A stretch of 64,000 bases of DNA from the NCBI GenBank assembly GCA_034231615.1, contig CM067306.1:32357363-32421362 (forward strand), written 5' to 3'. This DNA is from Meghimatium bilineatum (taxonomy: Eukaryota; Mollusca; Gastropoda; Stylommatophora; Philomycidae). Shown here piece after piece: positions 6,175-56,700 of the stretch; position 1 is the first letter of the stretch, and each line of letters begins with the position of its first letter. The notes beneath the pieces were generated by a model that saw only the letters and a program-made list of their open reading frames with translations, was not told the DNA's origin and ran no database searches. The position numbers and the translations under genes are program-made.

Positions 6175-6925
6175 AGTGAATGAAGAAAAAATCTGTAACA
6201 ATGAGTGATAGAAGAAATCTGTACCACTGAGTGATCGAATATATCTGTAACATTGAGTGATAGAAAAAAATATGTAATAGTGATAGAAGAAATCTGTAAC
6301 AATGAGCGATAGAAGAAATCTGTAACACTGAGCGATAGAAGAAATCTGTAACACTGAGTGATTGAATAAATCTGTAACACTGAGTGATAGAAGAAATCTG
6401 TAACACTGAGTGATAGAAGAAATCTGTAACACTGAGTGATAGAAGAAATCTGTAACACTGAGTGATAGAAGAAATCTGTAACACTGAGTGATAGAAGAAA
6501 TCTGTAACACTGAGTGATCAAATAAATCTGTAACACTGAGTGATAGAAGAAATCTGTAACACTGAGTGATAGAAGAAATCTGTAACACTGAGTGATCGAA
6601 TAAATCTGTAACACTGAGTGATAGAAGAAATCTGTAACACTGAGTGATAGAAGAAATCTGTAACACTGAGTGATAGAAGAAATCTGTAACACGGAGTGAT
6701 CGAATAAATCTGTAACACTGAGTGATAGAAGAAATCTGTAACACTGAGTGATAGAAGAAATATGTAACACTGAGTGATCGAATAAATCTGTAACACTGAA
6801 TGATAGAAGAAATCTGTAACACTGAGTGATCGAATAAATCTGTAACACTGAGTGATCGAATAAATCTGTAACACTGAGTGATAGAAAAAATCGGTAACAC
6901 AGTGATAAAAGAAATCTATCTGAAT
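6175..6925. repeat. 26 bp minisatellite, about 28 copies
   Basis: Unit TCTGTAACACTGAGTGATAG plus AAGAAA, period 26 bp (for example starts at 6423 and 6449). Two unit variants alternate irregularly: one ends AGAAGAAA, the other CGAATAAA. The unit has no stop codon in any minus-strand frame, so all three minus frames are open for 118-247 codons. These are repeat artefacts, not genes. The flank before the array (6118-6170) is shared with 1592-1640. Confidence 0.95.
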
Positions 6926-8689: not shown

Positions 8690-9147
8690 ATCCTTCTAGA
8701 AGTCTAGTAGGGACATTATGGTGCTAGAAATGTAGTAGGGACATTATGGTGCTAGAAATGTAGTAGGGACATTATGGTGCTAGAAATGTAGTAGGGACAT
8801 TATGGTGCTAGAAATGTAGTAGGGCCATTATGGTGCTAGAAATGTAGTAGGGACATTATGGTGCTAGAAATGTAGTAGGGACATTATGGTGCTAGAAATG
8901 TAGTAGGGACATTATGGTGCTAGAAATGTAGTAGGGACATTATGGTGCTAGAAATCTAGTAGGGACATTATGGTGCTAGAAATGTAGTAGGGACATTATG
9001 GTGCTAGAAATCTAGTAGGGAAATTATCATGTTAGAAATTTAGTAGGGACATTATCCTGTTAGAAATACAGTAGGGACATTATCCTGTTAGAAATGCAGT
9101 AGGGACATTATCCTGATAGAAATCTAATAAAGACATTATCATGCTAC
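8690..9147. repeat. 28 bp minisatellite, about 16 copies
   Basis: Unit TAGTAGGGACATTATGGTGC followed by TAGAAATG, period 28 bp (starts 8705, 8733). Copies after 9000 diverge progressively (TTATCATGTTAG, TTATCCTGTTAG), typical of decay toward one edge of an array. Between 8211 and 8690 I see no gene or recognised repeat. Confidence 0.95.
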
Positions 9148-14499: not shown

Positions 14500-15210
14500 T
14501 AATAACTTCTAACAGGTACATGTCGCTTGATAGTTTCAGCATATAATAACTTCTAACAGCTACATCTGGTTTGGTAGTTTCAATATATAATACTTCTAAC
14601 AGTTAGGCTACATCTGGTTTGGTACTGTCAATAAAAATACTTCTAACAGCTACATCTGGTTTGGTAATGTCAATAAAAATACTTCTAACTGCTACATCTG
14701 GTTTGGTACTGTCAATAAAAATACTCCTAACAGTTACATCTGGTTTGGTGTTGTCAATAAAAAATACTTCTAACAGCTACATCTGGTTTGGTAATGTCAA
14801 TAAAAATACTTCTAACAGTTACATCTGGTTTGGTAATGTCAATAAAAATACTTCTAACAGTTACATCTGGTTTGGTAATGTCAATAAAAATACTTCTAAC
14901 AGTTACATCTGGTTTGGTAATGTCAATAAAAATACTTCTAACAGCTACATCTGGTTTGGTAATGTCAATAAAAATACTTCTAACAGCTACATCTGGTTTG
15001 GTAATTGCACCATATAATACTTCTAACAGCTACATCTGGTTTGGTAATGTCAATAAAAATACTTCTAACAGCTACATCTGGTTTGGTAATGTCAATAAAA
15101 ATACTTCTAACAGTTACATCTGGTTTGGTAATTGCACCCTATAATACTTCTAATAGTTACATCTGATTTGGTAATTGCAACATGCAATACTTCCAATAGC
15201 TAAATCTCGC
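14500..15210. repeat. 42 bp minisatellite, about 16 copies
   Basis: Unit ACTTCTAACAGTTACATCTG followed by GTTTGGTAATGTCAATAAAAAT (starts of ACATCTGG at 14821 and 14863). Variants lack the AATGTCAATAAAA block or carry ATTGCACCATATAA instead. Because 42 is a multiple of three, plus-strand frames of 118 and 132 codons arise from it; these are not genes. Each standard unit contains AATAAA. Confidence 0.95.
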
Positions 15211-15404
15211 TTGGTGGAGCATTTTCCAGAATTTATTTAATGCTAGTATTTAACTGCCAGCATACAAGTAAATAAAGGACATCGTTGCCAGAGAGTTGGT
15301 ACAATTAATGATCAAATTGGCAGCCCTGATAAAGGAATACAATAATTTATTGAACATTTGAAATAGTTCGCTCGTCTCCTATTTGTCATATGCTAACTTG
15401 ATGT

Positions 15405-15410
15405 CACACG
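15405..15410. repeat. Target site duplication, left copy (CACACG)
   Basis: Six bases identical to 28599-28604 and directly outside the terminus AGTAGTATATAAGG. A six-base duplication is the length known for Polinton/Maverick integration. Confidence 0.8.
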
Positions 15411-15440
15411 AGTAGTATATAAGGTGCATTTGGATGTATA

Positions 15441-15497
15441 TTTTCCTGGCACCAATGACAAAGAAGGAAAAACCTGGCACCAAAGACAAAGAAGAAT
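15441..15497. repeat. Subterminal 28 bp direct repeat in the Polinton-like terminus
   Basis: CCTGGCACCAATGACAAAGA then, 28 bases on, CCTGGCACCAAAGACAAAGA. The pair occurs 30 bp inside each end of the element (complement at 28510-28568). It recurs at the inner unit ends (19007-19059 and its complement at 24950-25002), where the first copy reads CCTGACACC. It could be a binding site for integrase or terminal protein; that is inference. Confidence 0.6.
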
Positions 15498-16670
15498 TAA
15501 TTCCAAGGATAACAAGGCTTAGCTGAGTTTTTCTGGGGGTTTCTGGGGTTTTCGTGAGATATTTAAAAAAAAAAATATTTTGAAATATTTTATTTTGAGC
15601 TTAGTTTATTGTTAATTTTATTTATTGTCTAGAGTTTTCGTGTATTGTTTCGTTTTGAGATTTTCCAATGTTTACTATTTAATGTAGTACCGTAGGATGT
15701 CTCCGGCCTTTACTTGTTGTTATTGTTGTGATATCTTGTTATATAAATAAACTGTCAAAAGGGTAATGGCGAGTCGTCTCTACATACACAAATGATTCTC
15801 AAAAACCGTCTACCTCTTCTGTAATGTAGGTGTTGGTAGAATACACATGTCGGTTATTGCCAGGTCGGGTGATAAGTCTCCTTGGTATTATAGATAAAAG
15901 GGGAATACATAATGGTCACATATATACAAACAACCATAGATAAAACATGAAGCTTTTTGAGTTGTGTTGAATAGGTTTTTTATTCAGGTTTCCATTGTTT
16001 TAAATGAACATACATATATAATTAGCATGAAAATTGGCTTTATGTATACTTTATTTGTAACATACATTCATATAGGTATAACACTCGTTAGTAGTCACAT
16101 AGTTCAGGGAAATACCCGTTGTTTACATATATACATACAAAGCTTAGATAAAACATGAAGATTTGAATAGTTTATTTCATGTTATGACAGTGGCATCCAC
16201 CTAAGTTAACATAAAAACGCTTTGATGGTAGTCATAAATTTCAGGGAAATATATAATTTATACATATATACAGACAAACATAGTACCCTTTTAGTCCTCT
16301 ATTCGTCGTTTTACACAAATATACAAAAAGTTAATATGCAAAGTGTGGTTATGTAGGTTTTATTAGTAGCATACATTCATATATACATGAAATAACACCA
16401 GTTGGTAGGCACATAACTTAGGGAAATACATTATGCTTACACATATACATTAAAAACATAGATAAAATATGAAGAGTTTGAGTGGTGTACTTCATATTTT
16501 CGTCTTGGGACGGAGTCCCATAGCATGAAAATATGTTTTATTAATAATAGAGTGGTGGTTTAAATACATAAAAAGGGCTTACAGAGGTTGGCCATGCCTC
16601 ATATAATGCTATATATGTTATTATAGACATGAAATAAGAATTAATAACTGTCGTAGAATTAGATTTTGTG

Positions 16671-18003
16671 TCAGATATTCAGGGGAATAGTCGAGATGTC
16701 ATCGGTCTGTACCTGTCGCTTTATGTAGAAATAGGACAGGGCGGCTCTATCTTGTTCGTATGTGTAAATGGCTGACTTGTGAACTTTGAAACCTACATTT
16801 TTACCGCCGTGTGCCTTTTGTGTGCTTAAAACAGCTAAAAACATGTTTCTGTCAAATGTGTTATGTTGATGACTCAACCCTTTAGTCGATATCTTATTAT
16901 AGTCACAAAAGCAAAAATAAGTTTACTACAAAGAGCTATAATACCCTTTCCTGAATATTCGAGTTTGAATAAGCCTGGACATCTTTTATCAAAGACTCTA
17001 GCTTCGATGCAGTGTGGACACTCTTTCGGAGGACTGAGGAGCCTTTCTGTATGCATCTGGCAGCATTCTCAGGGAAACCACGGGTCATAAACTCGGAGAA
17101 ATTCAGCTTTCATGTCTGGTTTAATGACATCGTCGAGATTGAGAGCTGATAAGGCTAAATATAAGGAATTAGTATCTATCTCCGTTAATTTAAAGCCAGC
17201 CCTATCGACAAATCTGTCCAGGAAATCGTAGTAAAATTCCAACATTCTCATCTTGGCATACTGGTAGACGAAAAACCCTATCTGTAATGGGAGGGCCCAA
17301 TTAATTTTCTTTTTACTCATCTCTACTTCAAAAATGTCATCAGCGATCGCCGTCATGTTTTTAAAGCGTGGGGAATTTATTAATTTGATGTTTCATCACC
17401 TCTAACATAGGATACATCGGCGTGTCTGGCCTTATTAGTCAAAGTTTTCCCATAGGCCGAAGTGCCCAACAACTTCATAGTGTCACTCGTGATTGAATCG
17501 CCGGGTGAAAGGTCACCATTACGTCTAGCTGCTGTGACAGTATCTCCAAACTGTTTGAAACAAGCTACAGGTTGATACTCAATCACTTGATAAATTTCGG
17601 TTACCACCAAACCATGATTAAGATACCATTTTTACAATGGTGTAGCTAGTAGAATTTTTTTACCGAAATAGCTACCGATTAATGTACGTCTAGGCGTCGT
17701 TAATAGATTATGCTCTTCTGCATATCTCTGCATTAGAGGACCAATGTCTGCTCTAGTAACATCTATATTTTTGAATATAGGTGTCATTTCAGCAAAGTGA
17801 GCCTTCAGGGGTTCTGGTACGTGGATATCGCACGCGACTAATCCAAATAAGGTCTCGTCAGTGACAGAAACCAGAATCTGCTGAACCGATAACGGGTATT
17901 TTTCAATAAAATAGTCCCCCGAGCGGAAGGTTCCGAAGTGGTGAACACCGAACAAGTCTAGACAAGTTCTAATACCATTGAGAAAAATAACTTGAGACAA
18001 CAC
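16671..18003 (-). pseudogene. Protein-primed family B DNA polymerase fragment, copy A (left outer)
   Basis: C-terminal half of a DNA_pol_B_2-type polymerase in five minus-strand pieces: 18003-17632, 17610-17380, 17356-17069, 17056-16874, 16877-16671. Recognisable parts are a motif-A-like segment (LFGLVACDIHVPEPL), motif B (normally KxxGNSxYG, here LLGTSAYGKT with N changed to T) and motif C (DTDS in the other copies, here DTNSLY). Breaks: an in-frame TAA near 17633, a one-base loss after DETSN near 17381, a TGA after DPWFP near 17067, and a one-base loss near 16915. The two changed catalytic motifs make it inactive even apart from the breaks. N-terminal exonuclease and priming regions are absent. 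Confidence 0.88.
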
Positions 18004-20250
18004 AGTGGAACTAATTCTGTGCTAACGCGAATAGATAACAACATAGCCCAAAAATAAACAGCAAGGGTAACAAACAACACGAAAACGATAGAAAATAAAC
18101 AAAATTAACTATAAAACTAAGATTAAAATAAAGAATTTTAATGGAACCGGGTTAAAAGGGTTTATCTAGTTGTGAAAAGTATTAGCATGTGAGGAAACAC
18201 ATCTAAAACACTTCAAATGTTTATATGAGAACCAGGCTTGGAGACAGAGAGAGATTGCTACTCATCACGACAATTTGGTTTATATAGCAAGACATGACAG
18301 CACGTAATAAACACAGAATTTAGGTACTTGTAACAGCAAAATAGAAGATGTAGAGAACTTTCGTTGTAGGCGGAGAGTGCCCCTCAGCACATAGGGCAAT
18401 TCACTTATTTAACAAGACATCACAACCCAAATTAAACACAGAATTTAGGCGCATGACAATATAAGAAAAGATATATAGGGATTTTGAGAAAAATTGTTGT
18501 TGGCGGCCTTTCATGACAACAAACTTATATAACAGAACGCAAAGAACGGAGACACCAGATGGTACCACATTAAACAAACACAAAACAATCAAAAATATGA
18601 CAATGGTAGATACGTCACTCTTAACCACAACCTATGGTTAAAAGGTAACATACACCAGTATAAATAAATTATAGCTGTAATTAACATTACAGACATTAAC
18701 TAAACATCTTTTATTTCACTAGTAGTAGCCAACAGCAAAGTTATAAATCCGGTTCAACTCATTTAGTAGGACATAATAAGATCGCTATTTTGTATTATAT
18801 TAAGAAGACCATCGAATTATATTATAGTAGAGCTTGTAGAGAAATACACCCTGTATACAAAACACGCATTTAAATCAGTAAATAAATATAAATGAAATTG
18901 ATTTATGTCATATACCCGTGAAGTTGGTGAAAAATGTTATTATTTCCCTTTACTAGCACTACTTATATTTTTGGGCAAGGGGATATAATCACATTTTTGG
19001 TATTTTCCTGACACCAATGACAAAGAAGGAAAAACCTGGCACCAAAGACAAAGAAGAATTAATTCCAAGGATAACAAGGCTTAGCTGAGTTTTTCTGGGG
19101 GTTTCTGGGGTTTTCGTGAGGTATTTAAAAAAAATATTTTGAAATATTTTATTTTGAGCTTAGTTTATTGTTAATTTTATTTATTGTCTAGAGTTTTCGT
19201 GTATTGTTTCTTTTTGAGCTTTTCCAATGTTTACTATTTAATGTAGTACCGTAGGATGTCTCCGGCCTTTACTTGTTGTTATTGTTGTGATATCTTGTTA
19301 TATAAATAAACTGTCAAAAGGGTAATGGCGAGTCGTCTCTACATACACAAATGAGTCTCAAAAACCGTCTACCTCTTCTGTAATGTAGGTGTTGGTAGAA
19401 TACACATGTCGGTTATTGCCAGGTCGGGTGTTACATGTGATAAGTCTCCTTGGTATTATAGATAAAAGGGGAATAAATAATGGTCACATATATACAAACA
19501 ACCATAGATAAAACATGAAGCTTTTTGAGTTGTGTTGAATAGGTTTTTATTCAGGTTTCCATTGTTTCAAATGAACATACATATATAATTAACATGAAAA
19601 TTGGATTTATGTATACTTTATTTGTAACAAACATTCATATAGGCATAACACTCGTTAGTAGTCACATAGTTCAGGGAAATACCCGTTGTTTACATATATA
19701 CATACAAAGCTTAGATAAAACATGAAGATTTGAATAGTTTATTTCATGTTATGACAGAGTCGTCCACCTGTACCTAAGTTAACATAAAAAAAAAAAACGC
19801 TTTGATGGTAGTCATAAATTTCAGGGAAATATATAATTTATACATATATACAGACAAACATAGTACCCTTTTAGTCCTCTATTCGTCGTTTTACACAAAT
19901 ATACAAAAAGTTAATATGCAAATTGTGCTTATGTAGGTTTTATTAGTAGCATACATTCATATATACATGAAATAACACCAGTTGGTAGGCACATAACTTA
20001 GGGAAATACATTATGCTTACACATATACATTAAAAACATAGATAAAATATGAAGAGTTTGAGTGGTATAATTCATATTTTCGTCTTGGGACGGAGTCCCA
20101 TAGCATGAAAATATGTTTTATTAATAATAGAGTGGTGGTTTAAATACATAAAAAAGGCTTACAGAGGTTGACCATGCCTCATATAATGCTATATATGTTA
20201 TTATATACATGAAATAAGAATTAATAACTGTCGTAGAATTAGATTTTGTG

Positions 20251-21540
20251 TCAGATATTCAGGGGAATAGTCGAGATGTCATCGGTCTGTACCTGTCGCT
20301 TTATGTAGAAATAGGACAGGGCGGCTCTATCTTGTTCGTATGTGTAAATGGCTGACTTGTGAACTTTGAAACCTACATTTTTACCGCCGTGTGCCTTTTG
20401 TGTGCTTAAAACAGCTAAAAATATGTTTCTGTCAAATGTGTTATGTTGATGACTCAACCCTTTAGTCGATATCTTATTATAGTCACCAAAGCAAAAATAA
20501 GTTTACTACAAAGAGCTATAATACCCTTTCCTGAATATTCGAGTTTGAATAAGCCTGGACATCTTTTATCAAAGACTCTAGCTTCGATGCAGTGTGGACA
20601 CTCTTTCGGAGGACTGAGGAGCCTTTCTGTATGCATCTGGCAGCATTCTCGGGGAAACCACCGGGCATAAACTCGGAGAAATTCAGCTTTCATGTCTGGT
20701 TTAATGACATCGTCGAGATTGAGAGCTGATAAGGCTAAATATAAGGAATCAGTATCTATCTCCGTTAATTTAAAGCCAGCCCTATCGACAAATCTGTCCA
20801 GGATATGGTAGTAAAATTCCAACATTCTCATCTTGGCATACTGGTAGACGAAAAACCCTATCTGTAATGGGAGGTCCCAATTAATTTTCTTTTTACTCAT
20901 CACTACTTCAAAAGTGTCATCAGCGATCGCCGTCATGTTTTTAAAGCGTGGGGAATTTATTAATTTGATGTTTCATCACCTCTAACATAGGATACATCGG
21001 CGTGTCTGGCCTTATTAGTCAAAGTTTTCCCATAGGCCGAATTGCCCAACAACTTCATAGTGTCACTCGTGATTGAATCGCCGGGTGAAAGGTCACCATT
21101 ACGTCTAGCTGCTGTGACAATATCTCCAAACTGTTTGAACCAAGCTACAGGTTGATACTCAATCACTTGATAAATTTCGGTTACCACCAAACCATGATTA
21201 AGATACCATTTTAACAATGGTGTAGCTAGTAGAATTTTTACCGAAATAGCTACCGATCAATGTACGTCTAGGCGTCTTTAATAGATTATGCTCTTCTGCA
21301 TATCTCTGCATTAGAGGACCAATGTCTGCTCTAGTAACATCTATATTTTTGAATATAGGTGTCATTTCAGCAAAGTGAGCCTTCAGGGGTTCTGGTACGT
21401 GGATATCGCACGCGACTAATCCAAATAAGGTCTCGTCAGTGACAGAAACCAGAATCTGCTGAACCGATAACGGGTATTTTTCAATAAAATAGTCCCCCGA
21501 GCGGAAGGTTCCGAAGTGGTGAACACCGAACAAGTCTAGA
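20251..21540 (-). pseudogene. Protein-primed family B DNA polymerase fragment, copy B (left inner, truncated)
   Basis: Same protein as the other three copies, in pieces 21540-21198, 21217-20960, 20936-20454 and 20457-20251. Motif B is LLGNSAYGKT and motif C is TEIDTDSLY, both canonical. The piece corresponding to the two separate C-terminal fragments of the A copies is one frame here (160 codons), because the TGA is absent. Breaks: a two-base loss in the A-run near 21233 and the two one-base losses common to all copies. The reading frame upstream of 21540 runs into non-homologous spacer, because the inverted junction cuts the gene there. Confidence 0.88.
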
Positions 21541-22468
21541 TGCGTGTTTTTACTGTAAATGCGTGTTTTGTATACAGGGTATATTTCTCTACAAGATCTA
21601 CTATAATATAATTCGATGGTCTTCTTAATATAATACAAAATATCGATCTTATTATGTCCTACTAAATGAGTTGAACCGGCTTTATAACTTTGCTGTTGGC
21701 TACTACTAGTGAAATAAAAGATGTTTAGTTAATGTCTGTAATGTTAATTACAGCTATAATTTATTTATACTGGTGTATGTTACCTTTTAACCATAGGTTG
21801 TGGTTAAGAGTGACGTATCTACCATTGTCATATTTTTTATTGTTTTGTGTTTGTTTAATGTGGTACCATCTGGTGTCTCCGTTCTTTGCGTTCTGTTATA
21901 TAAGTTTGTTGTCATGAAAGGCCGCCAACAACAATTTTTCTCAAAATCCCTATATATCTTTTCTTATATTGCTACATGCGCCTAAATTCTGTGTTTATTT
22001 TGGGTTGTGATGTCTTGTTAAATAAGTGAATTGCCCTATGTGCTGAGGGGCACTCTCCGCCTACAACGAAAGTTCTCTAAATCTTCTATTTTGCTGTTAC
22101 AAGTACCTAAATTCTGTGTTTATTATGTACTGTCATGTCTTGCTATATAAACCAAATTGTCGTGATGGGTAGCAATCTCTCTCTGTCTCCAAGCCTGGTT
22201 CTCATATAAACATTTGAAGTGTTTTAGATGTGTTTCCTCACATGCTAATACTTTTCACAACTAGATAAACCCTTTTAACCCGGTTCCATTAAAAATTCTT
22301 TATTTTAATCTTAGTTTTATAGTTAATTTTGTTTATTTTCTATCGTTTTCGTGTTGTTTGTTACCCTTGCTGTTTATTTTTGGGCTATGTTGTTATCTAT
22401 TCGCGTTAGCACAGAATTAGTTCCACTGTGTTGTCTCAAGTTATTTTTCTCAATGGTATTAGAACTTG
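21541..22468 (+). other. Central spacer (loop) of the palindrome: upstream region of unit B'
   Basis: Single-copy within the palindrome axis but homologous, in plus orientation, to 25139-26046 of unit A' and in minus orientation to 17962-18870 of unit A. It begins with a 10-base direct repeat, TGCGTGTTTT at 21541-21550 and 21560-21569, consistent with templated filler at the inversion breakpoint. It carries the TATA modules that precede the polymerase fragment. Confidence 0.8.
21860..22170 (+). promoter_or_regulatory. Three related TATA-box modules upstream of polymerase copy B'
   Basis: Three ~120 bp modules share a pattern ending in TGTTATATAA (TATATAA at 21897), GATGTCTTGTTAAATAAG (22010-22027) and CATGTCTTGCTATATAAA (22135-22152), followed by GCC- or GTC-rich starts. 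Equivalent sets lie at 25450-25740 (plus) and 18260-18560 (minus). A fourth module faces the other way near the far end of each unit (complement at 24695-24720 and 28255-28280; plus-strand orientation at 15720-15750 and 19285-19320). I infer a promoter role from the TATA boxes and the position. A 61-75 codon frame overlapping them (18628-18401, 21800-21985, 25381-25608) is probably fortuitous. Confidence 0.5.
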
Positions 22469-23758
22469 TCTAGACTTGTTCGGTGTTCACCACTTCGGAA
22501 CCTTCCGCTCGGGGGACTATTTTATTGAAAAATACCCGTTATCGGTTCAGCAGATTCTGGTTTCTGTCACTGACGAGACCTTATTTGGATTAGTCGCGTG
22601 CGATATACACGTACCAGAACCCCTGAAGGCTCACTTTGCTGAAATGACACCTATATTCAAAAATATAGATGTTACTAGAGCAGACATTGGTCCTCTAATG
22701 CAGAGATATGCAGAAGAGCATAATCTATTAAAGACGCCTAGACGTACATTGATCGGTAGCTATTTCGGTAAAAATTCTACTAGCTACACCATTGTTAAAA
22801 TGGTATCTTAATCATGGTTTGGTGGTAACCGAAATTTATCAAGTGATTGAGTATCAACCTGTAGCTTGGTTCAAACAGTTTGGAGATATTGTCACAGCAG
22901 CTAGACGTAATGGTGACCTTTCACCCGGCGATTCAATCACGAGTGACACTATGAAGTTGTTGGGCAATTCGGCCTATGGGAAAACTTTGACTAATAAGGC
23001 CAGACACGCCGATGTATCCTATGTTAGAGGTGATGAAACATCAAATTAATAAATTCCCCACGCTTTAAAAACATGACGGCGATCGCTGATGACACTTTTG
23101 AAGTAGTGATGAGTAAAAAGAAAATTAATTGGGACCTCCCATTACAGATAGGGTTTTTCGTCTACCAGTATGCCAAGATGAGAATGTTGGAATTTTACTA
23201 CGATTTCCTGGACAGATTTGTCGATAGGGCTGGCTTTAAATTAACGGAGATAGATACTGATTCCTTATATTTAGCCTTATCAGCTCTCAATCTCGACGAT
23301 GTCATTAAACCAGACATGAAAGCTGAATTTCTCCGAGTTTATGCCCGGTGGTTTCCCCGAGAATGCTGCCAGATGCATACAGAAAGGCTCCTCAGTCCTC
23401 CGAAAGAGTGTCCACACTGCATCGAAGCTAGAGTCTTTGATAAAAGATGTCCAGGCTTATTCAAACTCGAATATTCAGGAAAGGGTATTATAGCTCTTTG
23501 TAGTAAACTTATTTTTGCTTTGGTGACTATAATAAGATATCGACTAAAGGGTTGAGTCATCAACATAACACATTTGACAGAAACATATTTTTAGCTGTTT
23601 TAAGCACACAAAAGGCACACGGCGGTAAAAATGTAGGTTTCAAAGTTCACAAGTCAGCCATTTACACATACGAACAAGATAGAGCCGCCCTGTCCTATTT
23701 CTACATAAAGCGACAGGTACAGACCGATGACATCTCGACTATTCCCCTGAATATCTGA
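22428..23758 (+). pseudogene. Protein-primed family B DNA polymerase fragment, copy B' (right inner)
   Basis: The best preserved copy, in four plus-strand pieces: 22428-22811, 22792-23049, 23073-23555, 23552-23758. Motif A-like LFGLVACDIHVPEPL, motif B LLGNSAYGKT and motif C TEIDTDSLY are all intact. A Cys-rich insert (ECPHC) follows motif C, then LFKLEYSGKGIIALCSK. Breaks: two bases missing from the A-run near 22773 relative to the A copies; one base missing near 23044, where DETSN meets a stop; one base missing near 23505. The last two are in all four copies. Family B polymerases of Polintons are ~1000 residues or more; only ~440 residues are represented here. Confidence 0.9.
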
Positions 23759-23859
23759 CACAAAATCTAATTCTACGACAGTTATTAATTCTTATTTCAT
23801 GTATATAATAACATATATAGCATTATATGAGGCATGGTCAACCTCTGTAAGCCTTTTTT

Positions 23860-24560
23860 ATGTATTTAAACCACCACTCTATTATTAATAAAACATATTT
23901 TCATGCTATGGGACTCCGTCCCAAGACGAAAATATGAATTATACCACTCAAACTCTTCATATTTTATCTATGTTTTTAATGTATATGTGTAAGCATAATG
24001 TATTTCCCTAAGTTATGTGCCTACCAACTGGTGTTATTTCATGTATATATGAATGTATGCTACTAATAAAACCTACATAAGCACAATTTGCATATTAACT
24101 TTTTGTATATTTGTGTAAAACGACGAATAGAGGACTAAAAGGGTACTATGTTTGTCTGTATATATGTATAAATTATATATTTCCCTGAAATTTATGACTA
24201 CCATCAAAGCGTTTTTTTTTTTTATGTTAACTTAGGTACAGGTGGACGACTCTGTCATAACATGAAATAAACTATTCAAATCTTCATGTTTTATCTAAGC
24301 TTTGTATGTATATATGTAAACAACGGGTATTTCCCTGAACTATGTGACTACTAACGAGTGTTATGCCTATATGAATGTTTGTTACAAATAAAGTATACAT
24401 AAATCCAATTTTCATGTTAATTATATATGTATGTTCATTTGAAACAATGGAAACCTGAATAAAAACCTATTCAACACAACTCAAAAAGCTTCATGTTTTA
24501 TCTATGGTTGTTTGTATATATGTGACCATTATTTATTCCCCTTTTATCTATAATACCAAG
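23860..24560 (+). repeat. Degenerate ~150-180 bp tandem repeats with AATAAA signals downstream of polymerase copy B'
   Basis: Recurring blocks: TATTTCCCTAAGTTATGTGC (24000), TATTTCCCTGAAATTTATGA (24178), TATTTCCCTGAACTATGTGA (24328), and TTCATGTTTTATCTA-type blocks near 23957, 24285 and 24490. Each is associated with AATAAA on the polymerase strand (near 23889, 24065, 24386 and 24460). The same series lies at 27440-28110 (plus) and inverted at 15900-16570 and 19450-20150. It is non-coding and could serve as redundant polyadenylation sites. Confidence 0.6.
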
Positions 24561-26005
24561 GAGACTTATCACATGTAACACCCGACCTGGCAATAACCGA
24601 CATGTGTATTCTACCAACACCTACATTACAGAAGAGGTAGACGGTTTTTGAGACTCATTTGTGTATGTAGAGACGACTCGCCATTACCCTTTTGACAGTT
24701 TATTTATATAACAAGATATCACAACAATAACAACAAGTAAAGGCCGGAGACATCCTACGGTACTACATTAAATAGTAAACATTGGAAAAGCTCAAAAAGA
24801 AACAATACACGAAAACTCTAGACAATAAATAAAATTAACAATAAACTAAGCTCAAAATAAAATATTTCAAAATATTTTTTTTAAATACCTCACGAAAACC
24901 CCAGAAACCCCCAGAAAAACTCAGCTAAGCCTTGTTATCCTTGGAATTAATTCTTCTTTGTCTTTGGTGCCAGGTTTTTCCTTCTTTGTCATTGGTGTCA
25001 GGAAAATACCAAAAATGTGATTATATCCCCTTGCCCAAAAATATAAGTAGTGCTAGTAAAGGGAAATAATAACATTTTTCACCAACTTCACGGGTATATG
25101 ACATAAATCAATTTCATTTATATTTATTTACTGATTTAAATGCGTGTTTTGTATACAGGGTGTATTTCTCTACAAGCTCTACTATAATATAATTCGATGG
25201 TCTTCTTAATATAATACAAAATAGCGATCTTATTATGTCCTACTAAATGAGTTGAACCGGATTTATAACTTTGCTGTTGGCTACTACTAGTGAAATAAAA
25301 GATGTTTAGTTAATGTCTGTAATGTTAATTACAGCTATAATTTATTTATACTGGTGTATGTTACCTTTTAACCATAGGTTGTGGTTAAGAGTGACGTATC
25401 TACCATTGTCATATTTTTGATTGTTTTGTGTTTGTTTAATGTGGTACCATCTGGTGTCTCCGTTCTTTGCGTTCTGTTATATAAGTTTGTTGTCATGAAA
25501 GGCCGCCAACAACAATTTTTCTCAAAATCCCTATATATCTTTTCTTATATTGTCATGCGCCTAAATTCTGTGTTTAATTTGGGTTGTGATGTCTTGTTAA
25601 ATAAGTGAATTGCCCTATGTGCTGAGGGGCACTCTCCGCCTACAACGAAAGTTCTCTACATCTTCTATTTTGCTGTTACAAGTACCTAAATTCTGTGTTT
25701 ATTACGTGCTGTCATGTCTTGCTATATAAACCAAATTGTCGTGATGAGTAGCAATCTCTCTCTGTCTCCAAGCCTGGTTCTCATATAAACATTTGAAGTG
25801 TTTTAGATGTGTTTCCTCACATGCTAATACTTTTCACAACTAGATAAACCCTTTTAACCCGGTTCCATTAAAATTCTTTATTTTAATCTTAGTTTTATAG
25901 TTAATTTTGTTTATTTTCTATCGTTTTCGTGTTGTTTGTTACCCTTGCTGTTTATTTTTGGGCTATGTTGTTATCTATTCGCGTTAGCACAGAATTAGTT
26001 CCACT

Positions 26006-27338
26006 GTGTTGTCTCAAGTTATTTTTCTCAATGGTATTAGAACTTGTCTAGACTTGTTCGGTGTTCACCACTTCGGAACCTTCCGCTCGGGGGACTATTT
26101 TATTGAAAAATACCCGTTATCGGTTCAGCAGATTCTGGTTTCTGTCACTGACGAGACCTTATTTGGATTAGTCGCGTGCGATATCCACGTACCAGAACCC
26201 CTGAAGGCTCACTTTGCTGAAATGACACCTATATTCAAAAATATAGATGTTACTAGAGCAGACATTGGTCCTCTAATGCAGAGATATGCAGAAGAGCATA
26301 ATCTATTAACGACGCCTAGACGTACATTAATCGGTAGCTATTTCGGTAAAAAAATTCTACTAGCTACACCATTGTAAAAATGGTATCTTAATCATGGTTT
26401 GGTGGTAACCGAAATTTATCAAGTGATTGAGTATCAACCTGTAGCTTGTTTCAAACAGTTTGGAGATACTGTCACAGCAGCTAGACGTAATGGTGACCTT
26501 TCACCCGGCGATTCAATCACGAGTGACACTATGAAGTTGTTGGGCACTTCGGCCTATGGGAAAACTTTGACTAATAAGGCCAGACACGCCGATGTATCCT
26601 ATGTTAGAGGTGATGAAACATCAAATTAATAAATTCCCCACGCTTTAAAAACATGACGGCGATCGCTGATGACATTTTTGAAGTAGAGATGAGTAAAAAG
26701 AAAATTAATTGGGCCCTCCCATTACAGATAGGGTTTTTCGTCTACCAGTATGCCAAGATGAGAATGTTGGAATTTTACTACGATTTCCTGGACAGATTTG
26801 TCGATAGGGCTGGCTTTAAATTAACGGAGATAGATACTGATTCCTTATATTTAGCCTTATCAGCTCTCAATCTCGACGATGTCATTAAACCAGACATGAA
26901 AGCTGAATTTCTCCGAGTTTATGACCTGTGGTTTCCCTGAGAATGCTGCCAGATGCATACAGAAAGGCTCCTCAGTCCTCCGAAAGAGTGTCCACACTGC
27001 ATCGAAGCTAGAGTCTTTGATAAAAGATGTCCAGGCTTATTCAAACTCGAATATTCAGGAAAGGGTATTATAGCTCTTTGTAGTAAACTTATTTTTGCTT
27101 TTGTGACTATAATAAGATATCGACTAAAGGGTTGAGTCATCAACATAACACATTTGACAGAAACATGTTTTTAGCTGTTTTAAGCACACAAAAGGCACAC
27201 GGCGGTAAAAATGTAGGTTTCAAAGTTCACAAGTCAGCCATTTACACATACGAACAAGATAGAGCCGCCGTGTCCTATTTCTACATAAAGCGACAGGTAC
27301 AGACCGATGACATCTCGACTATTCCCCTGAATATCTGA
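26006..27338 (+). pseudogene. Protein-primed family B DNA polymerase fragment, copy A' (right outer)
   Basis: Pieces 26006-26377, 26399-26629, 26653-26940, 26953-27135 and 27132-27338. Like copy A, motif B reads LLGTSAYGKT, an in-frame stop follows LLATPL near 26376, and another follows DLWFP near 26938. Unlike copy A, motif C is the canonical DTDSLY, so the D-to-N change in copy A arose after the inverted duplication. The two one-base losses shared by all copies are present (near 26624 and 27085). Confidence 0.9.
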
Positions 27339-28598
27339 CACAAAATCTAATTCTACGACAGTTATTAATTCTTATTTCATGTCTATAATAACATATATAG
27401 CATTATATGAGGCATGGCCAACCTCTGTAAGCCCTTTTTATGTATTTAAACCACCACTCTATTATTAATAAAACATATTTTCATGCTATGGGACTCCGTC
27501 CCAAGACGAAAATATGAAGTACACCACTCAAACTCTTCATATTTTATCTATGTTTTTAATGTATATGTGTAAGCATAATGTATTTCCCTAAGTTATGTGC
27601 CTACCAACTGGTGTTATTTCATGTATATATGAATGTATGCTACTAATAAAACCTACATAACCACACTTTGCATATTAACTTTTTGTATATTTGTGTAAAA
27701 CGACGAATAGAGGACTAAAAGGGTACTATGTTTGTCTGTATATATGTATAAATTATATATTTCCCTGAAATTTATGACTACCATCAAAGCGTTTTTATGT
27801 TAACTTAGGTGGATGCCACTGTCATAACATGAAATAAACTATTCAAATCTTCATGTTTTATCTAAGCTTTGTATGTATATATGTAAACAACGGGTATTTC
27901 CCTGAACTATGTGACTACTAACGAGTGTTATACCTATATGAATGTATGTTACAAATAAAGTATACATAAAGCCAATTTTCATGCTAATTATATATGTATG
28001 TTCATTTAAAACAATGGAAACCTGAATAAAAAACCTATTCAACACAACTCAAAAAGCTTCATGTTTTATCTATGGTTGTTTGTATATATGTGACCATTAT
28101 GTATTCCCCTTTTATCTATAATACCAAGGAGACTTATCACCCGACCTGGCAATAACCGACATGTGTATTCTACCAACACCTACATTACAGAAGAGGTAGA
28201 CGGTTTTTGAGAATCATTTGTGTATGTAGAGACGACTCGCCATTACCCTTTTGACAGTTTATTTATATAACAAGATATCACAACAATAACAACAAGTAAA
28301 GGCCGGAGACATCCTACGGTACTACATTAAATAGTAAACATTGGAAAATCTCAAAACGAAACAATACACGAAAACTCTAGACAATAAATAAAATTAACAA
28401 TAAACTAAGCTCAAAATAAAATATTTCAAAATATTTTTTTTTTTAAATATCTCACGAAAACCCCAGAAACCCCCAGAAAAACTCAGCTAAGCCTTGTTAT
28501 CCTTGGAATTAATTCTTCTTTGTCTTTGGTGCCAGGTTTTTCCTTCTTTGTCATTGGTGCCAGGAAAATATACATCCAAATGCACCTTATATACTACT

Positions 28599-28604
28599 CA
28601 CACG
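28599..28604. repeat. Target site duplication, right copy (CACACG)
   Basis: Identical to 15405-15410 and directly outside the right terminus CCTTATATACTACT. Confidence 0.8.
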
Positions 28605-29219: not shown

Positions 29220-29630
29220 ACCGTAGCTGTTCTCGAAGCTAATCCTATGTTCTGATTGATACGTCATTTACATACAATACAAGCTGTTCTCGAAGCTAAT
29301 CCTATGTTCTGATTGATACGTCATTTACATACAATCCTAGCTGTTCTCAAAGCTAATCTTATGTTCTAATTGATACGTCATTTACATACAATCCTAGCTG
29401 TTCTAAGAAACTAATCCTATGTTCTGAATGATATGCCAAGCACACCAATCCTAGCTGTTCTAGAAGCACATCCTGTTCTAAGTGATATATAAAAATACAT
29501 CAATCCTATCTGTTCTAGAAGCTAATCCTACGTTCTGATTGATATATCAAATACAGCAATCCTAACTGTTCTAGAAGTTAATCCTATGTTCTGATTGATA
29601 TGTCAGATACAAGAACATCAATCCAAACCA
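29220..29630. repeat. Degenerate ~57 bp tandem repeats, about 7 copies
   Basis: Unit built around AGCTGTTCTCGAAGCTAATC, CTATGTTCTGATTGATACGT and CATTTACATACAATCC. Copies diverge to TGATATATCAAATACAGCAA toward the right. Confidence 0.85.
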
Positions 29631-38290: not shown

Positions 38291-38479
38291 AACAGAAATT
38301 GACGGATATATAAGGGATACATTTTGCAATTGCTTGACAAGCCATTTATGAATGCAGACACTATTATGGAATGATGCAACTGATAATATGGAAGAATTTG
38401 ATATTCAGTGTGACACTATTTGGACTGGGCATCGGAGAGGAGTGAGGAATGTGTCCAACTAGCGAGTCACGTTAACCAT

Positions 38480-40720
38480 CAGTATACATACACTTATGCT
38501 CCAGGCACGGGCAGGATCAGGTACAGCTTACTCAAGGACATTGGGTGAGAATATGCTAGTTAAGATGACAGACGATTATAATGCGAGTCTGAACACAGGA
38601 GTAGTACCAGAGGAGTGGCTACATAACTATCTTATACCTGTGCCAAAACCAGGCAAAGATTCTACAGACATAAAAGGTTATCGCATCATCACACTGCAGA
38701 ATGTGTACGGTAAGATTCTGGAAAGAATTGTTGCTAGGCGCATAACCAGCGAACTAGAGATCAAAGGCGTTCTCCCAAATAATCTAGGTGCATACAGAAC
38801 CAGAAGAGACACATTTACAAATTCAGCAGTTTTTGCATATGAAGTCTATGAAGGTTTTCAGAATAAAGAGGAATCTGTAGTTGCAGCGATAGACCTGGAA
38901 GATTCGTACAATAGAGTTAGTTACACCAATCTGTAACTGACGACATTAAAGATAACATGAATACATCGCTAGAAAATGCAAGCCACATCGCCCAAGACAG
39001 AGAGAGGTTCAGAGAGTTCATTGGGAAGACAACGTTCTGGAAGGAATACGTCACATGACACACCCATCTTATCGACATGCTAAGGGAACAAGATATCAAC
39101 CCCTGGATCATACACTGGATAGCAAATATGCTAATCTGTAGAAAAGTTGCTCTGATGTATGGATCATGGACGTCTGAGATCAGAACAATAGCACCTGGTC
39201 TGCCACAAGGGTCTTCTCTGTCCCTAGTGCTGTTTAATGTGTATACGTTGAGAATTGCTCAATAACAAACCTCAGGCAATTGTAGAGTTCTAACATAACA
39301 TGCGCTGATGATATTCTACTATACAACATGGACAGGAACGTAACAGATATCGTTGACAATGTACAGAATGGACTAGATCGAACGTCGATATGGTGAATAT
39401 AACATATAACGTTGTGATCAATCCCTCGAAAGCAAAGGTCGTATGGTACTCCTTAAATAATAATCTGGTCAGTGATACAGTCAGCTGTCAGTTTTATGGG
39501 TTCATGTATTGAAAGAGAACAAGACCTTAAATATCTGGAATAACCTTTGATAGCAGTCTCTCATTCAACAAACACAACTATGATTCAGAAGGTTAAAAGA
39601 GGGATCAGTGTTGTCAAGGTAATGGCGACCTTCGACATGCAGCAATGGGTAAAGTTTCTGCTTCTACAAGTGATGGTGCTATCTGTCATAGATTATAGCC
39701 TCGACCTACTAACACTGTCACAGACACAAGTCGATACATTGCAAAAAGTCCAGAACGAGGCAATGAGAGCTGTACTGGGGTGTACTAGAGATATACCCAT
39801 CTCTGCTATGAGATTTCTGCTTGATCTCCCCAGCATTAGAATGCGACATCAGGTATCACAAGTTAGGTTGTACCTTAAAGTGACAGAATACAACCACCAC
39901 ACATTACACCAGCGTCTAGATGAGTCAAAGGGAAAACGAATCAAGTATGGCAGATCATGGATGGCAAAGGCTGAAGACACATTGCGAAGAGCATGTGAAT
40001 TTGAAGAAATAGGAATGGACAGTGAATTGATGGAGGCAGACACTGAAAAGAAATCATTGACTAAAGTAATAATACAACTAGATAAAGCGTGTCGAAAATG
40101 GACGGGTGTCAGGGCCCAGGTTACAGTGCATGAACTCGCCCAGATACACTCGAAATCACAAGACATAATTATATACACAGATGGCTCCGTTAACAGAAAC
40201 ATAAATAAAAGCGGTTGGGGGTTTTGTTTCCTACACAAACGGCGTGAAGTTGGTTGAGAAATCTTCAGCATATTTAACTGTCACATCGAGCATAAGGATG
40301 GAGATATAGGGAGTTACAGCAGTACTTAATTGGCTGATAACTGATACATCAATGCATTCGGTAATACTCACAGACTCCCAAAGCATGCTGCGCAAGATAG
40401 AAAAGTTCATGCTGAGAAAAGAATGGTGGGACTTATTGAACAACTCAATTGTCCAGAGCATTACATGGAAATACTGCCCTGGTCATGCTGGGGTCAGAGG
40501 AAATGAGACTTATTGGCAGAAAATACGACGATCCACTGCACATTTCTGAGAAGAGATAAAGCAGACTTAATGAAGGCAGTAATAAATTTATTCCAGATGA
40601 TGTCAATGTGGCTGATAACGCAAACATACAGAAAATGTTAGAAATTGGAGTATTTAGAGGTGAAGAAAGGAAAAGTAAATTTTTAGAAAGTCGCGAAGAT
40701 CACACAATCAACACCTGACT
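38480..40720 (+). pseudogene. LINE with reverse transcriptase and RNase H domains (5'-truncated)
   Basis: Reverse transcriptase parts in order: VPKPGKDSTDIKGYRIITLQ, a motif-A segment AIDLEDSYNRV, then after an insertion LIDMLREQDINPWIIHWIAN, GLPQGSSLSLVLFNVYT (38496-39265), and ADDIL at about 39306. A further 236-codon frame (39547-40257) leads into an RNase H domain. That domain shows IIIYTDGSVN at its start, ILTDSQSML at 40358-40384 and CPGHAGVRGNE at 40475-40505. In active RNase H the GNE is followed by a catalytic aspartate; here it reads GNETYWQ, so that residue is missing. A LINE of the I/Jockey-related type with terminal RNase H is the best fit. Frameshifts and an internal 127 bp insertion make it a fossil. 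Confidence 0.85.
38933..39059 (+). mobile_element. 127 bp LINE 3'-end insertion inside the RNase H LINE
   Basis: It encodes the C-terminus of a different LINE (ENASHIAQDRERFREFIGKT, then TFWKEYVT and a stop). It is bounded by ACACCAATCT (38923-38932) and ACACCCATCT (39060-39069), a 10 bp direct repeat with one mismatch. Removing the insert and one repeat copy puts the host reverse transcriptase back in frame. An inverted relative is at 42676-42806. Confidence 0.8.
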
Positions 40721-41160: not shown

Positions 41161-41164
41161 TGAA

Positions 41165-42012
41165 CCACATACACTAATGCCTGTCCCATACGATAAACGA
41201 AGCACACTAATGCCTGTCCCATACGATAAACGAAGCACACTAATGTCTGTTCTATACGATAAACAAAACACATTAATGTATATCCTATACGATAAACAAA
41301 ACACATTAATGTCTGTCCTATACGATAAACAAAACACATTAATGTCTGTCCTATACGATAAACAAAACACACTAATGCCTGTCCCATATGATGAAACAAA
41401 CACACTAATGCCTGTCCCATAAGAAGAACCAAAACACACTAATGCCTGTTCCATAAGATGAACCAAACACACTAATGAATGTCCCATAAGTTGAACCAAA
41501 CACACTAATGCCTGTCCCATAAGTTGAACCAAACACACTAATGCCTGTCTCATAAGTTGAACCAAACACACTAATGCCTGTCCCATAAGATGAACCAAAC
41601 ACACTAATGCCTGTCCCATAAGATGAACCAAACACACTAATGAATGTCCCATAAGTTGAACCAAACACATTAATGCCTGTCCCATAAGATGAACCAAACA
41701 CACTAATGCCTGTCCCATAAGTTGAACCAAACACACTAATGCCTGTCCCATAAGTTGAACCAAACACACGAATGCCTGTCCCATAAGTTGAACCAAACAC
41801 ACTAATGCCTGTCCCATAAGTTGAACCAAACACACTAATGAATGTCCCATAAGTTGAACCAAACACACTAATGAATGTCCCATAAGTTGAACCAAACACA
41901 CTAATGAATGTCCCATAAGTTGAACCAAACACACTAATGAATGTCCCATAAGTTGAACCAAACACATTAATGCCTGTCCCATAAGATGAACCAAATACAT
42001 TAATGCCTGTCC
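41165..42012. repeat. 33 bp minisatellite, about 26 copies in two sub-arrays
   Basis: The right sub-array has unit CATAAGTTGAACCAAACACA plus CTAATGCCTGTCC. The left sub-array (41165-41400) has CATACGATAAACGAAGCACA or CGATAAACAAAACACATTAA with the same CTAATGCCTGTCC end. Since 33 is a multiple of three, long frames in several phases are produced (up to 289 codons on the minus strand); their 11-residue periodicity shows they are repeat artefacts. Confidence 0.95.
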
Positions 42013-42459
42013 CGATGAACTATCAACTGAAATTAACTTCTAACTGAAACATTTTGAGTTTTATCAATGCACAATCTATATCAACAGTTCAAAACTCAAT
42101 CTTCGTAAAAATGCACATACTGTGTTTGATCAATTTTTGTACAGTGAAATATCGACAGAACCAGGACACCTGCACAAGGTAAGTAACTACACATTGTACA
42201 TTCTCACTCACACCTGTACTATGTGGGGTGGAATACGGTTGCTAGAAGGTATTTTGTGAACCTACAGATCATCTTGACTTCAGCTTCGATGACCACCACA
42301 AGAAAGTAGCCACCGAGTCAAGGGGGTATTTTAGAACTGTTCAACTGACCTCCTGCGAGCCAAAGTGAGTAATTATTATAATAACGTCGCCTGTGGTTCG
42401 GTTTCAATATAAAACACGTCAATATGTCTGTGTAGTGTGTTCTACTGCTATATTCTATT
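42013..42459. other. Stretch without a recognised gene
   Basis: Ordinary AT-rich sequence; no coding frame, repeat or motif that I can support. Confidence 0.5.
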
Positions 42460-53796: not shown

Positions 53797-56700
53797 TGCC
53801 TATTCAATGCAGTACATTTCTAGCCATTATAAGGATTGGACATGCAAGCCCTTTCGCTCCAAAATATATTTGTCCTGCATGCTGATCTCGTCAGTAGCTT
53901 GGCTAATATGACTTTCTCCATGCTTTTCATTGACTGGAATCACAAAATATAGGCAAAGCGACTGATGATGAATTGAATCAGCCTAATGAATGGCAGCATG
54001 CTGGATATATAATCTAAAGGAATTGCTATATCTCATATTAGTACATTGTTATTACTTACTGATGCAGTCATGTTATGAAGAATTGGGATCTTTATATATT
54101 ACCAACAGAATTCACAGCAAATGAAATTTGATGCCACAAAATTTCGAGCAGCTAACAGAGGAAAGGTAGGTTTCATTTTAAATTTGACAGTATTAAATAG
54201 TTTTCACGTATGTTTCCCTGGTTAGCATATGTTAGACAAACTACATTTTTTTGCAAAAGGCCAAACAAAGTAAATGATGTTTTATTTCAACAATTATTTC
54301 CCTTGACTATAATTACCCATCAGTAGGTGAAGGTGAGATATTTATTTAGGAGAGTTGTATAGGTAGGAAAAAACTGGGAAAGGGGTTAGAGCTAGGGTTA
54401 GGGTACTATATCTCTATCAGTCACAGGTAAGCTCAACAAACATATGATCATGTTTAACTACTTTGTATCTAGGACTCAGCCAGCCATCAGTGATGTCACA
54501 AAATTCTGACAGGTGCAGATTTTATAGAAAGTTAGATTGTAGTACCATCTAATGGTATTGTACAGTTTTCATTGTTTTAGTACATGGTCAAGAGATCAAC
54601 TCTGAAGTTTCTTATCAAGCACCTATTAGATGCGATACTGTAATAGCTGACACATCTAGGATTATGGTTAAGATAATTTGGTATTAAGTGTGACATGAGT
54701 AGTGAGCATCGGAAGATCACAATAATTCATGTGTTTAGCCAGCAAACCATGTGAGACACAATATGTGTACATTTCATCAACTGTTGGTGGAGACTAAACC
54801 CCTATGGGTTGATCCGGTATTCAATGCCATTGGTTCATAACCAATAAATACATGGAGTATGTGAACACAGTGAAATCCTTGTATAACAAATTTGGTCTGA
54901 ACCAATTAAGTATTTATTACATGGAGTGTATGAATACCCTTAAGTTAAATTCTTGTATAACAAATGTGGTCTGGACTAATGATATATTTATGTAATAACC
55001 CAAAATTTGCTATGTACAATTATATGTATGACCTTTTGCATCTTGTAGATGGTCATTAAGCAAAAGGTAGCAATTAATTGAGCATTTTATAAAAAATAGA
55101 GACTTTTCAAGTGATCATGTCACAGCAACATAAGAAGAGTGTTTGTGTCCTTCTCTTCTTCCACAGTTATATAGAATTAAGATTAATTAGAGGGTTTTAA
55201 AAAGTGTTAAGAGAAAATTTCTATAACAAACATAGACACTAAAAAGGGGATTGTGTTACGTTACCTTCTTCTGACTTCTTGTTGAGTAACCTTTTCTGAA
55301 AAATGCAATTTTTACAGTTATGCACTCTTGATTTTTCAGGATTGTTTATATTTAGTGTCTTCTGCAAACATAATGTGCACTGCTCTGCCACCATTTGTTG
55401 CCTTGATTGCTGATCTGTCTGTGTACACACAGGTCCAGATGTTTTGTTGTCTCAATTGCTGATCCATCTGTGTACACAGGTCCAATTATTTTGTAGCAAT
55501 TAAGTTAAAACACCCAATAATCTTACTAAGTTGGTGTTTGTTTAAAAAAAAATAGTTAAAAAATATATAATTTGTTGCCCCTGCCCAAAAGGGGAGAAAA
55601 GAAAGCAAAACTGTTTACCTTCTGTGCATGTCATAAGAAGTAACTAAGGAGGTTTGGGGGAAGAGTTGTCTGCCCTATCCTATATAGAGTCAAAGTGATC
55701 CAGAAGCCATGCAAAGTCAAATGTTGTGTGTCAAGCTGAAAAGAGTAGATATCGCAGATAAGCTGTAAACCATGACAATGCATCTGTTCTCTGGACTACA
55801 TCCTGCTAATCTGTAGGAGTTTGAGAATGAACACAGAAGAAGTTGAAAAATTTAATCACACAATTCAGTGAAGCTATTGGTTCTTTGATGTGAAGTGACT
55901 GAAGTGAATCACATAATTAAATGAAACTATTGGTACTGTGATCTGAAGACTACATTGAATCACACAATTTAATGAAGTTATTGGTCCTGTGATCTGATGA
56001 CAAACTGAAATAATGACAAATAAATCATGCATATATATGAACTATTTCCTTTTGGAATAATTACATTTTTGTTAAATGTAGGATACCAAGAAAGATCTGT
56101 TCAGCACTGAATCCAAGGGTAGGTTTTCAGTATCTGTTTTACAATGTTAATCAGTGTACATATTACAAGGTCTTTGTTATTTAAGATTGATGTGCAGATT
56201 GTGATTTATAATTTTCCTTGCTGAGATCTTAACTAGAGAATATGTGTGGGATACTAGCTAGGGAACATAAGTGGGGGTCATAGCTAGGGAGTATGTGTTG
56301 GATATCAGATAGGGAACATAGGATGGAGTCATAGATAGGGAGTATGTGTTGGATATTAGCTAGGGAACATAGGAGGGAGTCATAGCTAGGGAGTATGTGT
56401 TGGATATTAGCTAGGGAACATAGGTGAGGGTCATAATGGGAATATTTGCTGGATCCTAGCTAGGGAACATAGGAGGGAGTCATAGCTAGGGAGTATGTGT
56501 TGGATATTAGCTAGGGAACATAGGATGGAGTCATAGATAGGGAGTATGTGTTGGATATTAGCTAGGGAACATAGGAGGGAGTCATAGCTAGGGAGTATGT
56601 GTTGGATATTAGCTAGGGAACATAGGTGAGGGTCATAGCTAGGGAATATGTGTGGGATACTAGCTAGGGAACATAGGTGGGGGTCATAATGGGAATATTT

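Follow-up and report, generated by a model that had tools for sequence, protein, structure and literature searches.

How does an insertion in a chromosome come to read the same on both strands from one end to the other? The question is raised by a 13188-bp palindromic element in the gastropod Meghimatium bilineatum (contig CM067306.1), carried by the 64,000-nt stretch of DNA analysed here, which we call the window and whose positions are used throughout. The two inverted arms of the element (15410-21540 and 22469-28599) are 6131 nt each with 928 nt between them, and a base-by-base comparison gives 6 differences over 6131 nt (99.90% identity), which bears out the original prediction, made from the letters alone, of a palindrome filling almost the whole element. 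The element starts AGTAGTATATAAGG and finishes CCTTATATACTACT, ends of the Maverick type AGTAGT...ACTACT, and the symmetry of the arms ends at these transposon termini. A polymerase-bearing unit U, defined as 15439-18872 (3434 bp) and mapped onto the element, is found in it four times, two copies being inverted relative to the other two. The features are, in order along the window:

15405..15410, left target-site duplication, CACACG
15411..28598, whole palindromic element, 13188 bp
15411..15438, plus strand, outer 28 bp beginning AGTAGTATATAAGG, present at the outer ends and absent before the inner units of this element
15439..18872, minus strand, unit U1, outer and full, with broken polymerase remains in minus-strand frames between 16671 and 18021
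18873..19000, 128-bp junction j between tandem units
19001..21540, minus strand, unit U2, inner and truncated, with polymerase remains from 20251
21541..22468, 928-bp central spacer: 15 bp of junction and the inward part of U3 without a mirror in U2
21556..25008, plus strand, unit U3, inner and full, with polymerase remains in frames 22410-23758
25009..25136, mirror of junction j, placed as the gap between U3 and U4
25137..28570, plus strand, unit U4, outer and full, the mirror of U1 (99.91%), with polymerase remains in frames 25988-27338
28571..28598, minus strand, mirror of the outer 28 bp
28599..28604, right target-site duplication, CACACG

The order of the polymerase-bearing units, minus, minus, plus, plus, is the one that had been predicted for the polymerase fragments. 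U1 is 99.91% identical to its mirror U4 and 97.4% identical to its neighbour U2. Since four units can be mapped, the spacer is mostly the inward part of U3, whose mirror has been lost from U2; its predicted length stands, but it is not unique sequence. Compared with the unit of the 12.9-kb coding copies described below, unit U is the same unit with about 3 kb of internal sequence missing. The copy in the window derives from such a unit by internal deletion and tandem doubling and later lost part of one inner unit; the view of it as non-autonomous is supported.

The family was sought across the host genome (1.61 Gb, 32 contigs), and other palindromic copies were found, as the original prediction had proposed to check. 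With a 1.59-kb end probe, 40 of 413 candidates were scored and 49 matches obtained; the terminal 42-mer, at no more than 3 mismatches, matched 33 times forward and 28 times in reverse, against 0 in the control. An exact 15-mer gave 33 and 32 matches; the control also gave 7 and 9, and a few of the unpaired 15-mer matches are thus probably due to chance. Both ends were read at 23 sites, counting the copies C7a and C7b as one because their flanks are common, and a 6-bp target duplication is present at all 23: 21 are exact and two, at C24 69.19 Mb and in an array at C4 28.15 Mb, have one extra end triplet. The duplications mostly differ in sequence between sites. One further single end, at C8 62.77 Mb, stands outside this count. 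In a diverged subfamily, one copy (C4 19309229-19323870) has the ends AGTAGTATAATAGG and lies within a GGCGTC duplication. The two C7 copies (69996080-70013137 and 70240365-70257422; L027-L030) lie 244 kb apart, and one of them must be a segmental duplicate, since flanks and target duplication are shared.

Symmetry was compared arm to arm at 13 sites (14 copies) and by the central 600 bp at 7 more, with C3 and C9b outside the comparison and the C4 array, a larger plus/minus array, counted apart. All 20 sites are palindromic, and the seven centres are self-inverted over 596-601 aligned columns at 98.2-99.8%. Given the length of the arms and the inverted copies at other sites, chance is excluded as the origin of the palindrome. 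The copies built of U form a size ladder: 1+1 units in C11 (6936 bp), 1+2 in C17 (10513 bp), 2+2 in C2, C24a, C24b, C12 and C16a (each about 14.09 kb) and 3+3 in C15 (21217 bp). In C25, a 1+1 palindrome, repeats of about 217 bp form an array at the centre, and C7 can be read as three units of a 6.1-kb form. Unit numbers are unequal between the arms of C17 and of C7; the window copy and C14 are truncated on one side, and in C14 only the outer 3.3 kb are paired, around about 0.7 kb of other sequence. The C4 array (28151947-28176898; L033-L035) extends over 25 kb; its partial units, six plus followed by four minus, in many cases have an AGTAGT terminus of their own, and a single TGCGTA duplication encloses the whole.

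The same arrangement is found from within the gene. A 2.8-kb probe inside the polymerase gene has an inverted partner within 12 kb at 38 of 40 scored places (40 of 269 candidates scored), including copies at 86-89% identity. A query with a homologous protein (34 of 1642 candidates scored) gave 11 close pairs in inverted orientation, every one of them divergent, besides 2 direct pairs and 8 matches without a partner; two of these eight (C24 69.19 Mb and C16 27.28 Mb) have partners in the list from the 2.8-kb probe. It had been supposed that a terminal repeat expanded in the window copy; this is not supported as it stood, since symmetry is the rule of the family, including 12.9-kb copies with polymerase in both arms.

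These coding copies are represented by C10, a 12919-bp palindrome of two 6.46-kb units that agree at 99.98% over 6221 columns, and five further copies have nearly the same length. Each arm of the 12.9-kb form carries a single family-B DNA polymerase gene, whose reading direction runs from the centre outward. In the left half of C10, whose frame list was read and of which the right half is the mirror, all four stop-to-stop frames of at least 90 aa are pieces of the polymerase, and C10 itself is broken because its polymerase stands in four pieces. Among these frames there is neither an integrase of its own nor an ATPase, protease or capsid gene. Elsewhere, in 8 of the 11 inverted pairs neither match has an internal stop, and in 7 of these 8 both frames are about 1450 aa long, the eighth being a pair on C15, described below, in which one match is partial. 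In the window, where frames of at least 50 aa were listed and the polymerase ones scanned for domains, the U frames are similar to the C-terminal portion of a family-B polymerase, which in every copy is broken up into short frames. Two of the pieces share 50 of 84 and 85 of 178 aligned columns with a Pomacea homologue; the four pieces have no Pfam match at E up to 1. A C7 frame of 1043 codons has 364 protein matches among 6286 candidates, and Bradybaena, Pomacea, Elysia and Littorina are named among the best 120 of the 364. DNA_pol_B_2 is detected in 8 of 18 aligned homologues (E up to 0.01), and the C7 frames themselves fall below that model. Homology thus assigns the gene, at family level, to the family-B polymerases of protein-primed type. 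The window frames also contain NSAYG and DTDS motifs.

Several side observations concern the same protein. A DNLCFFRCLAL stretch in the C7 frame is suggestive, by eye only, of an N-terminal OTU-like domain, a feature of adintovirus PolB. In IMG/VR, 25 stretches fitted the pattern of the polymerase alignment and 2 loci passed, with matches confined to residues about 852-937; one locus (L063) looks by eye like a tailed-phage contig, and the second is L064. Residues about 850-940 of the frame at L027 6567-9695 are the only part of the polymerase matched by these two contigs, and the homologue P0003 is named a very-short-patch-repair endonuclease in its source record. Perhaps a nuclease domain is lodged in the polymerase at this position. 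Among solved structures, a search with the polymerase profile gave 137 sequences, of which the 60 listed are zinc-finger proteins, and a 123-aa polymerase stretch gave no match.

The history of the arms was followed in a 1.39-kb segment of 48 units. Mirror units are 0-0.43% apart. For tandem neighbours the figure is 1.5-1.95% in the U forms, with 0 for the inner two units of C15, and 0-0.07% in C7; the outermost units of different elements are up to 3.4% apart. A tree of the units separates inner from outer ones, the two resulting groups split in parallel, and most mirror units are sisters; the doubled unit is thus older than the split, and the two arms have been kept together. Over whole arms, differences range from 4 in 6458 (C10) to 34 in 3463 (C17), and the six of the window are all private among the 14 copies compared. 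The eight U-type centres that were read turn around at ATTTA-6 nt-TAAAT, with CGGATT as the six bases in five, its complement AATCCG in two and AATCAG in one (C2). Junction j of the window opens with an ATTTA-AATCAG-TAAAT repeat region, away from any centre, and closes with sequence resembling the tip of the 12.9-kb-copy centres; the small inverted repeat at the start of j shares the form of the U-type centre, as snap-back priming predicts. The 12.9-kb copies are nearly identical elsewhere, yet their central loops differ.

A second, related group of polymerases, with frames of about 1560-1567 aa, is also present in the host genome. Several lie in elements that end AGTAGTATAGCAACGAGG, two of 12481 bp and one of 15976 bp, with one scored polymerase each, and the group is mostly outside inverted pairs. 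The copy on C1 has the duplication AATGTA, and its two sides, read over 5.6 kb and 2.6 kb, show no inverted match to each other; in this apparently asymmetric element a PC4-like gene (PF02229, E 4e-8; L085 719-1279, equal to C1 11785518-11786078) adjoins and converges on a polymerase with a 1567-aa frame. At C15 3047270-3059190, two inverted polymerase matches lie between second-group ends with the duplication CACAAC. The positions of the matches and the ends suggest an inverted duplicate derived from an asymmetric element; the midpoint of this copy is not its centre.

The window copy is one decayed representative of a mobile family that sits in the chromosomes as whole-element palindromes, and we consider with moderate confidence that snap-back inverted dimers and a borrowed integrase explain them. 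From the anatomy described above we infer protein priming, snap-back dimer formation, hairpin intermediates and an integrase acting in trans. The replicating unit would have one recognised terminus (H) and one turn-around tip (T), with protein-primed synthesis starting at H. At T the strand would fold back and be copied, giving an inverted dimer with T in the centre and H at both ends. The integrase, presumably of Maverick type, is not encoded by the element and would have to be borrowed; the predicted donor is an integrase-bearing element with AGTAGTATA ends. We propose that palindromes are the inserted form because only the dimer would give the integrase two termini, and that joining of T to H would produce tandem units and hence the 1+1, 1+2, 2+2 and 3+3 forms. 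Displaced single strands may fold into long hairpins, and correction of the stem or renewed snap-back would keep the arms alike. Support comes from the palindromes at 20 of 20 sites, the inverted partners at 38 of 40 places and the 6-bp duplications at 23 of 23 sites, from the AGTAGT//ACTACT ends, which vertebrate Mavericks share, as well as from the closer similarity of mirror units than of tandem neighbours, the form of the U-type centres, the differing central loops, and the inverted pair on C15 between the ends of a group with otherwise single scored polymerases. Replication through a hairpin or inverted dimer, suggested in the original prediction, thus fits the centres and the unit ladder, but it stays at the level of interpretation. 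More tentatively, and at somewhat less than even odds, the family may be a distinct transposon class in which a self-complementary inverted dimer made by protein-primed snap-back is the obligatory mobile form; one replicon end would then be doubled for the borrowed Maverick integrase, and the palindrome would be a life cycle and not an accident.

Near-identical palindromes are a known hazard for assemblers, and fold-back of reads could in principle have produced the symmetry. We regard such an artefact as hardly credible, because the symmetry stops exactly at the transposon ends, direct 6-bp duplications flank the copies at 23 of 23 sites, the arms carry differences, and most of the second polymerase group lies outside inverted pairs; the independent target duplications answer the earlier worry on this point. 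On the same duplications, inversion after insertion was also rejected. The Maverick-type ends and the duplication would also suit an ordinary Polinton in which, after insertion of this copy, recombination or conversion extended the terminal repeats inward, but the shared architecture at other independent sites and in coding copies contradicts this, and no integrase, capsid, protease or ATPase was seen in the left half of C10, so we judge it very improbable.

A more serious, though in our view still unlikely, alternative is that the family became palindromic once and is now moved whole by ordinary means, with its arms equalised by chromosomal gene conversion and no snap-back in each cycle. Arm differences common to separate insertions show that both arms can be transmitted, and the parallel splitting of outer and inner units into two clades means that the 2+2 form was inherited. 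Against it, central loops differ among nearly identical copies, and palindromes with different units and centres (the U, C25, C7 and 12.9-kb forms), together with the inverted pair in the second, otherwise asymmetric group, suggest repeated new formation. The snap-back account has points to answer as well. Separate insertions have arm differences in common: C24a with C16a, apparently at the same two positions, and C24b with C16a and C15; the arms are thus not always renewed from one template, and the idea that both are so renewed in every cycle was rejected. C24a (C24 10834707-10848787; L013, L014) joins arms of two sublineages, and the arms of C11 and C17 diverge more (0.61% and 0.98%), probably because their units are hybrids of outer and inner ones. 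Furthermore, 2 of the 40 probe places are without a listed inverted partner, the ratio of nonsynonymous to synonymous change between two decayed copies is a weak 0.64, and no integrase donor turned up, no completed search having been aimed at one.

Among known systems, the foldback elements FB and Galileo consist mostly of long inverted repeats with internal tandem repeats, and are relatives of P transposase with longer target duplications. The present family shares the long inverted and the tandem repeats, but it has a polymerase gene, and its 6-bp duplication argues against membership, no transposase search having been made. Palindromic derivatives of yeast linear plasmids and adenovirus variants are inverted dimers of one replicon end; to our knowledge they are defective or laboratory derivatives and not genomic transposon families, and our literature searches did not return them. 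The replication enzyme of adeno-associated virus (AAV) differs from the family-B polymerase type. AAV snapback genomes are likewise self-complementary from one genome end, in symmetric, asymmetric and dimeric configurations, and by analogy they offer the closest working model in the literature covered, although they are parvovirus subgenomes in particles and not an inserted transposon family (PMC8235507). Bidnaviridae have a similar DNA unit of about 6-6.5 kb, a Polinton-type PolB and inverted terminal repeats, but encode a superfamily 3 helicase and jelly-roll capsid proteins (PMC4061559), and Adintovirus is defined by hexon and rve integrase (PMC11071296); the left half of C10 has none of these among its frames of at least 90 aa.

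Mavericks themselves are the nearest in ends. In vertebrates their commonest end motif is (AGT)2//(ACT)2, the target duplication measures 6 bp, terminal repeats of 46-1447 bp (402 on average) enclose a unique interior, and the core genes number eight, or seven in one frog (PMC8097293). The AGTAGT//ACTACT ends, the 6-bp target duplication and a protein-primed-type family-B polymerase are shared; unlike in Mavericks, the arms here make up almost the entire element, with the polymerase as the sole long frame seen in the left half of C10. The predicted Polinton/Maverick likeness is thus borne out by the ends, the duplication and polymerase remains of the DNA_pol_B_2 kind, as named on homologues, but not by gene content. 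Since gene content and architecture disagree, we file the family as Maverick-derived, polymerase-only and palindromic, and not as Maverick proper. No palindromic Maverick family was found described in titles and the opening parts of abstracts among the papers listed, which leaves its absence from print unproven.

Elsewhere in the window, a 42-bp tandem array (14505-15215) ends about 200 bp left of the element, and other long arrays lie at 6177-6917, 8696-9146, 29224-29605, 41161-42013 and 56233-56965; such arrays produce spurious open frames. Reverse-transcriptase fragments (PF00078) are present at 58154-58927, 38463-38936 and 39544-40257, the last also with a sub-threshold RNase H match.

In genomes, long perfect palindromes are generally regarded as unstable. 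Here a mobile family keeps the palindrome across subfamilies 11-14% apart, with a polymerase gene in both arms. The model can be tested by sequence in other mollusc genomes, through central loops, arm differences and the unit ladder. If the proposed mechanism is true, the chromosomes of this species would be a natural record of snap-back replication by a protein-primed polymerase; it would tie Mavericks to hairpin-replicating viruses and linear plasmids, and would show a way for an element without an integrase of its own to remain mobile.

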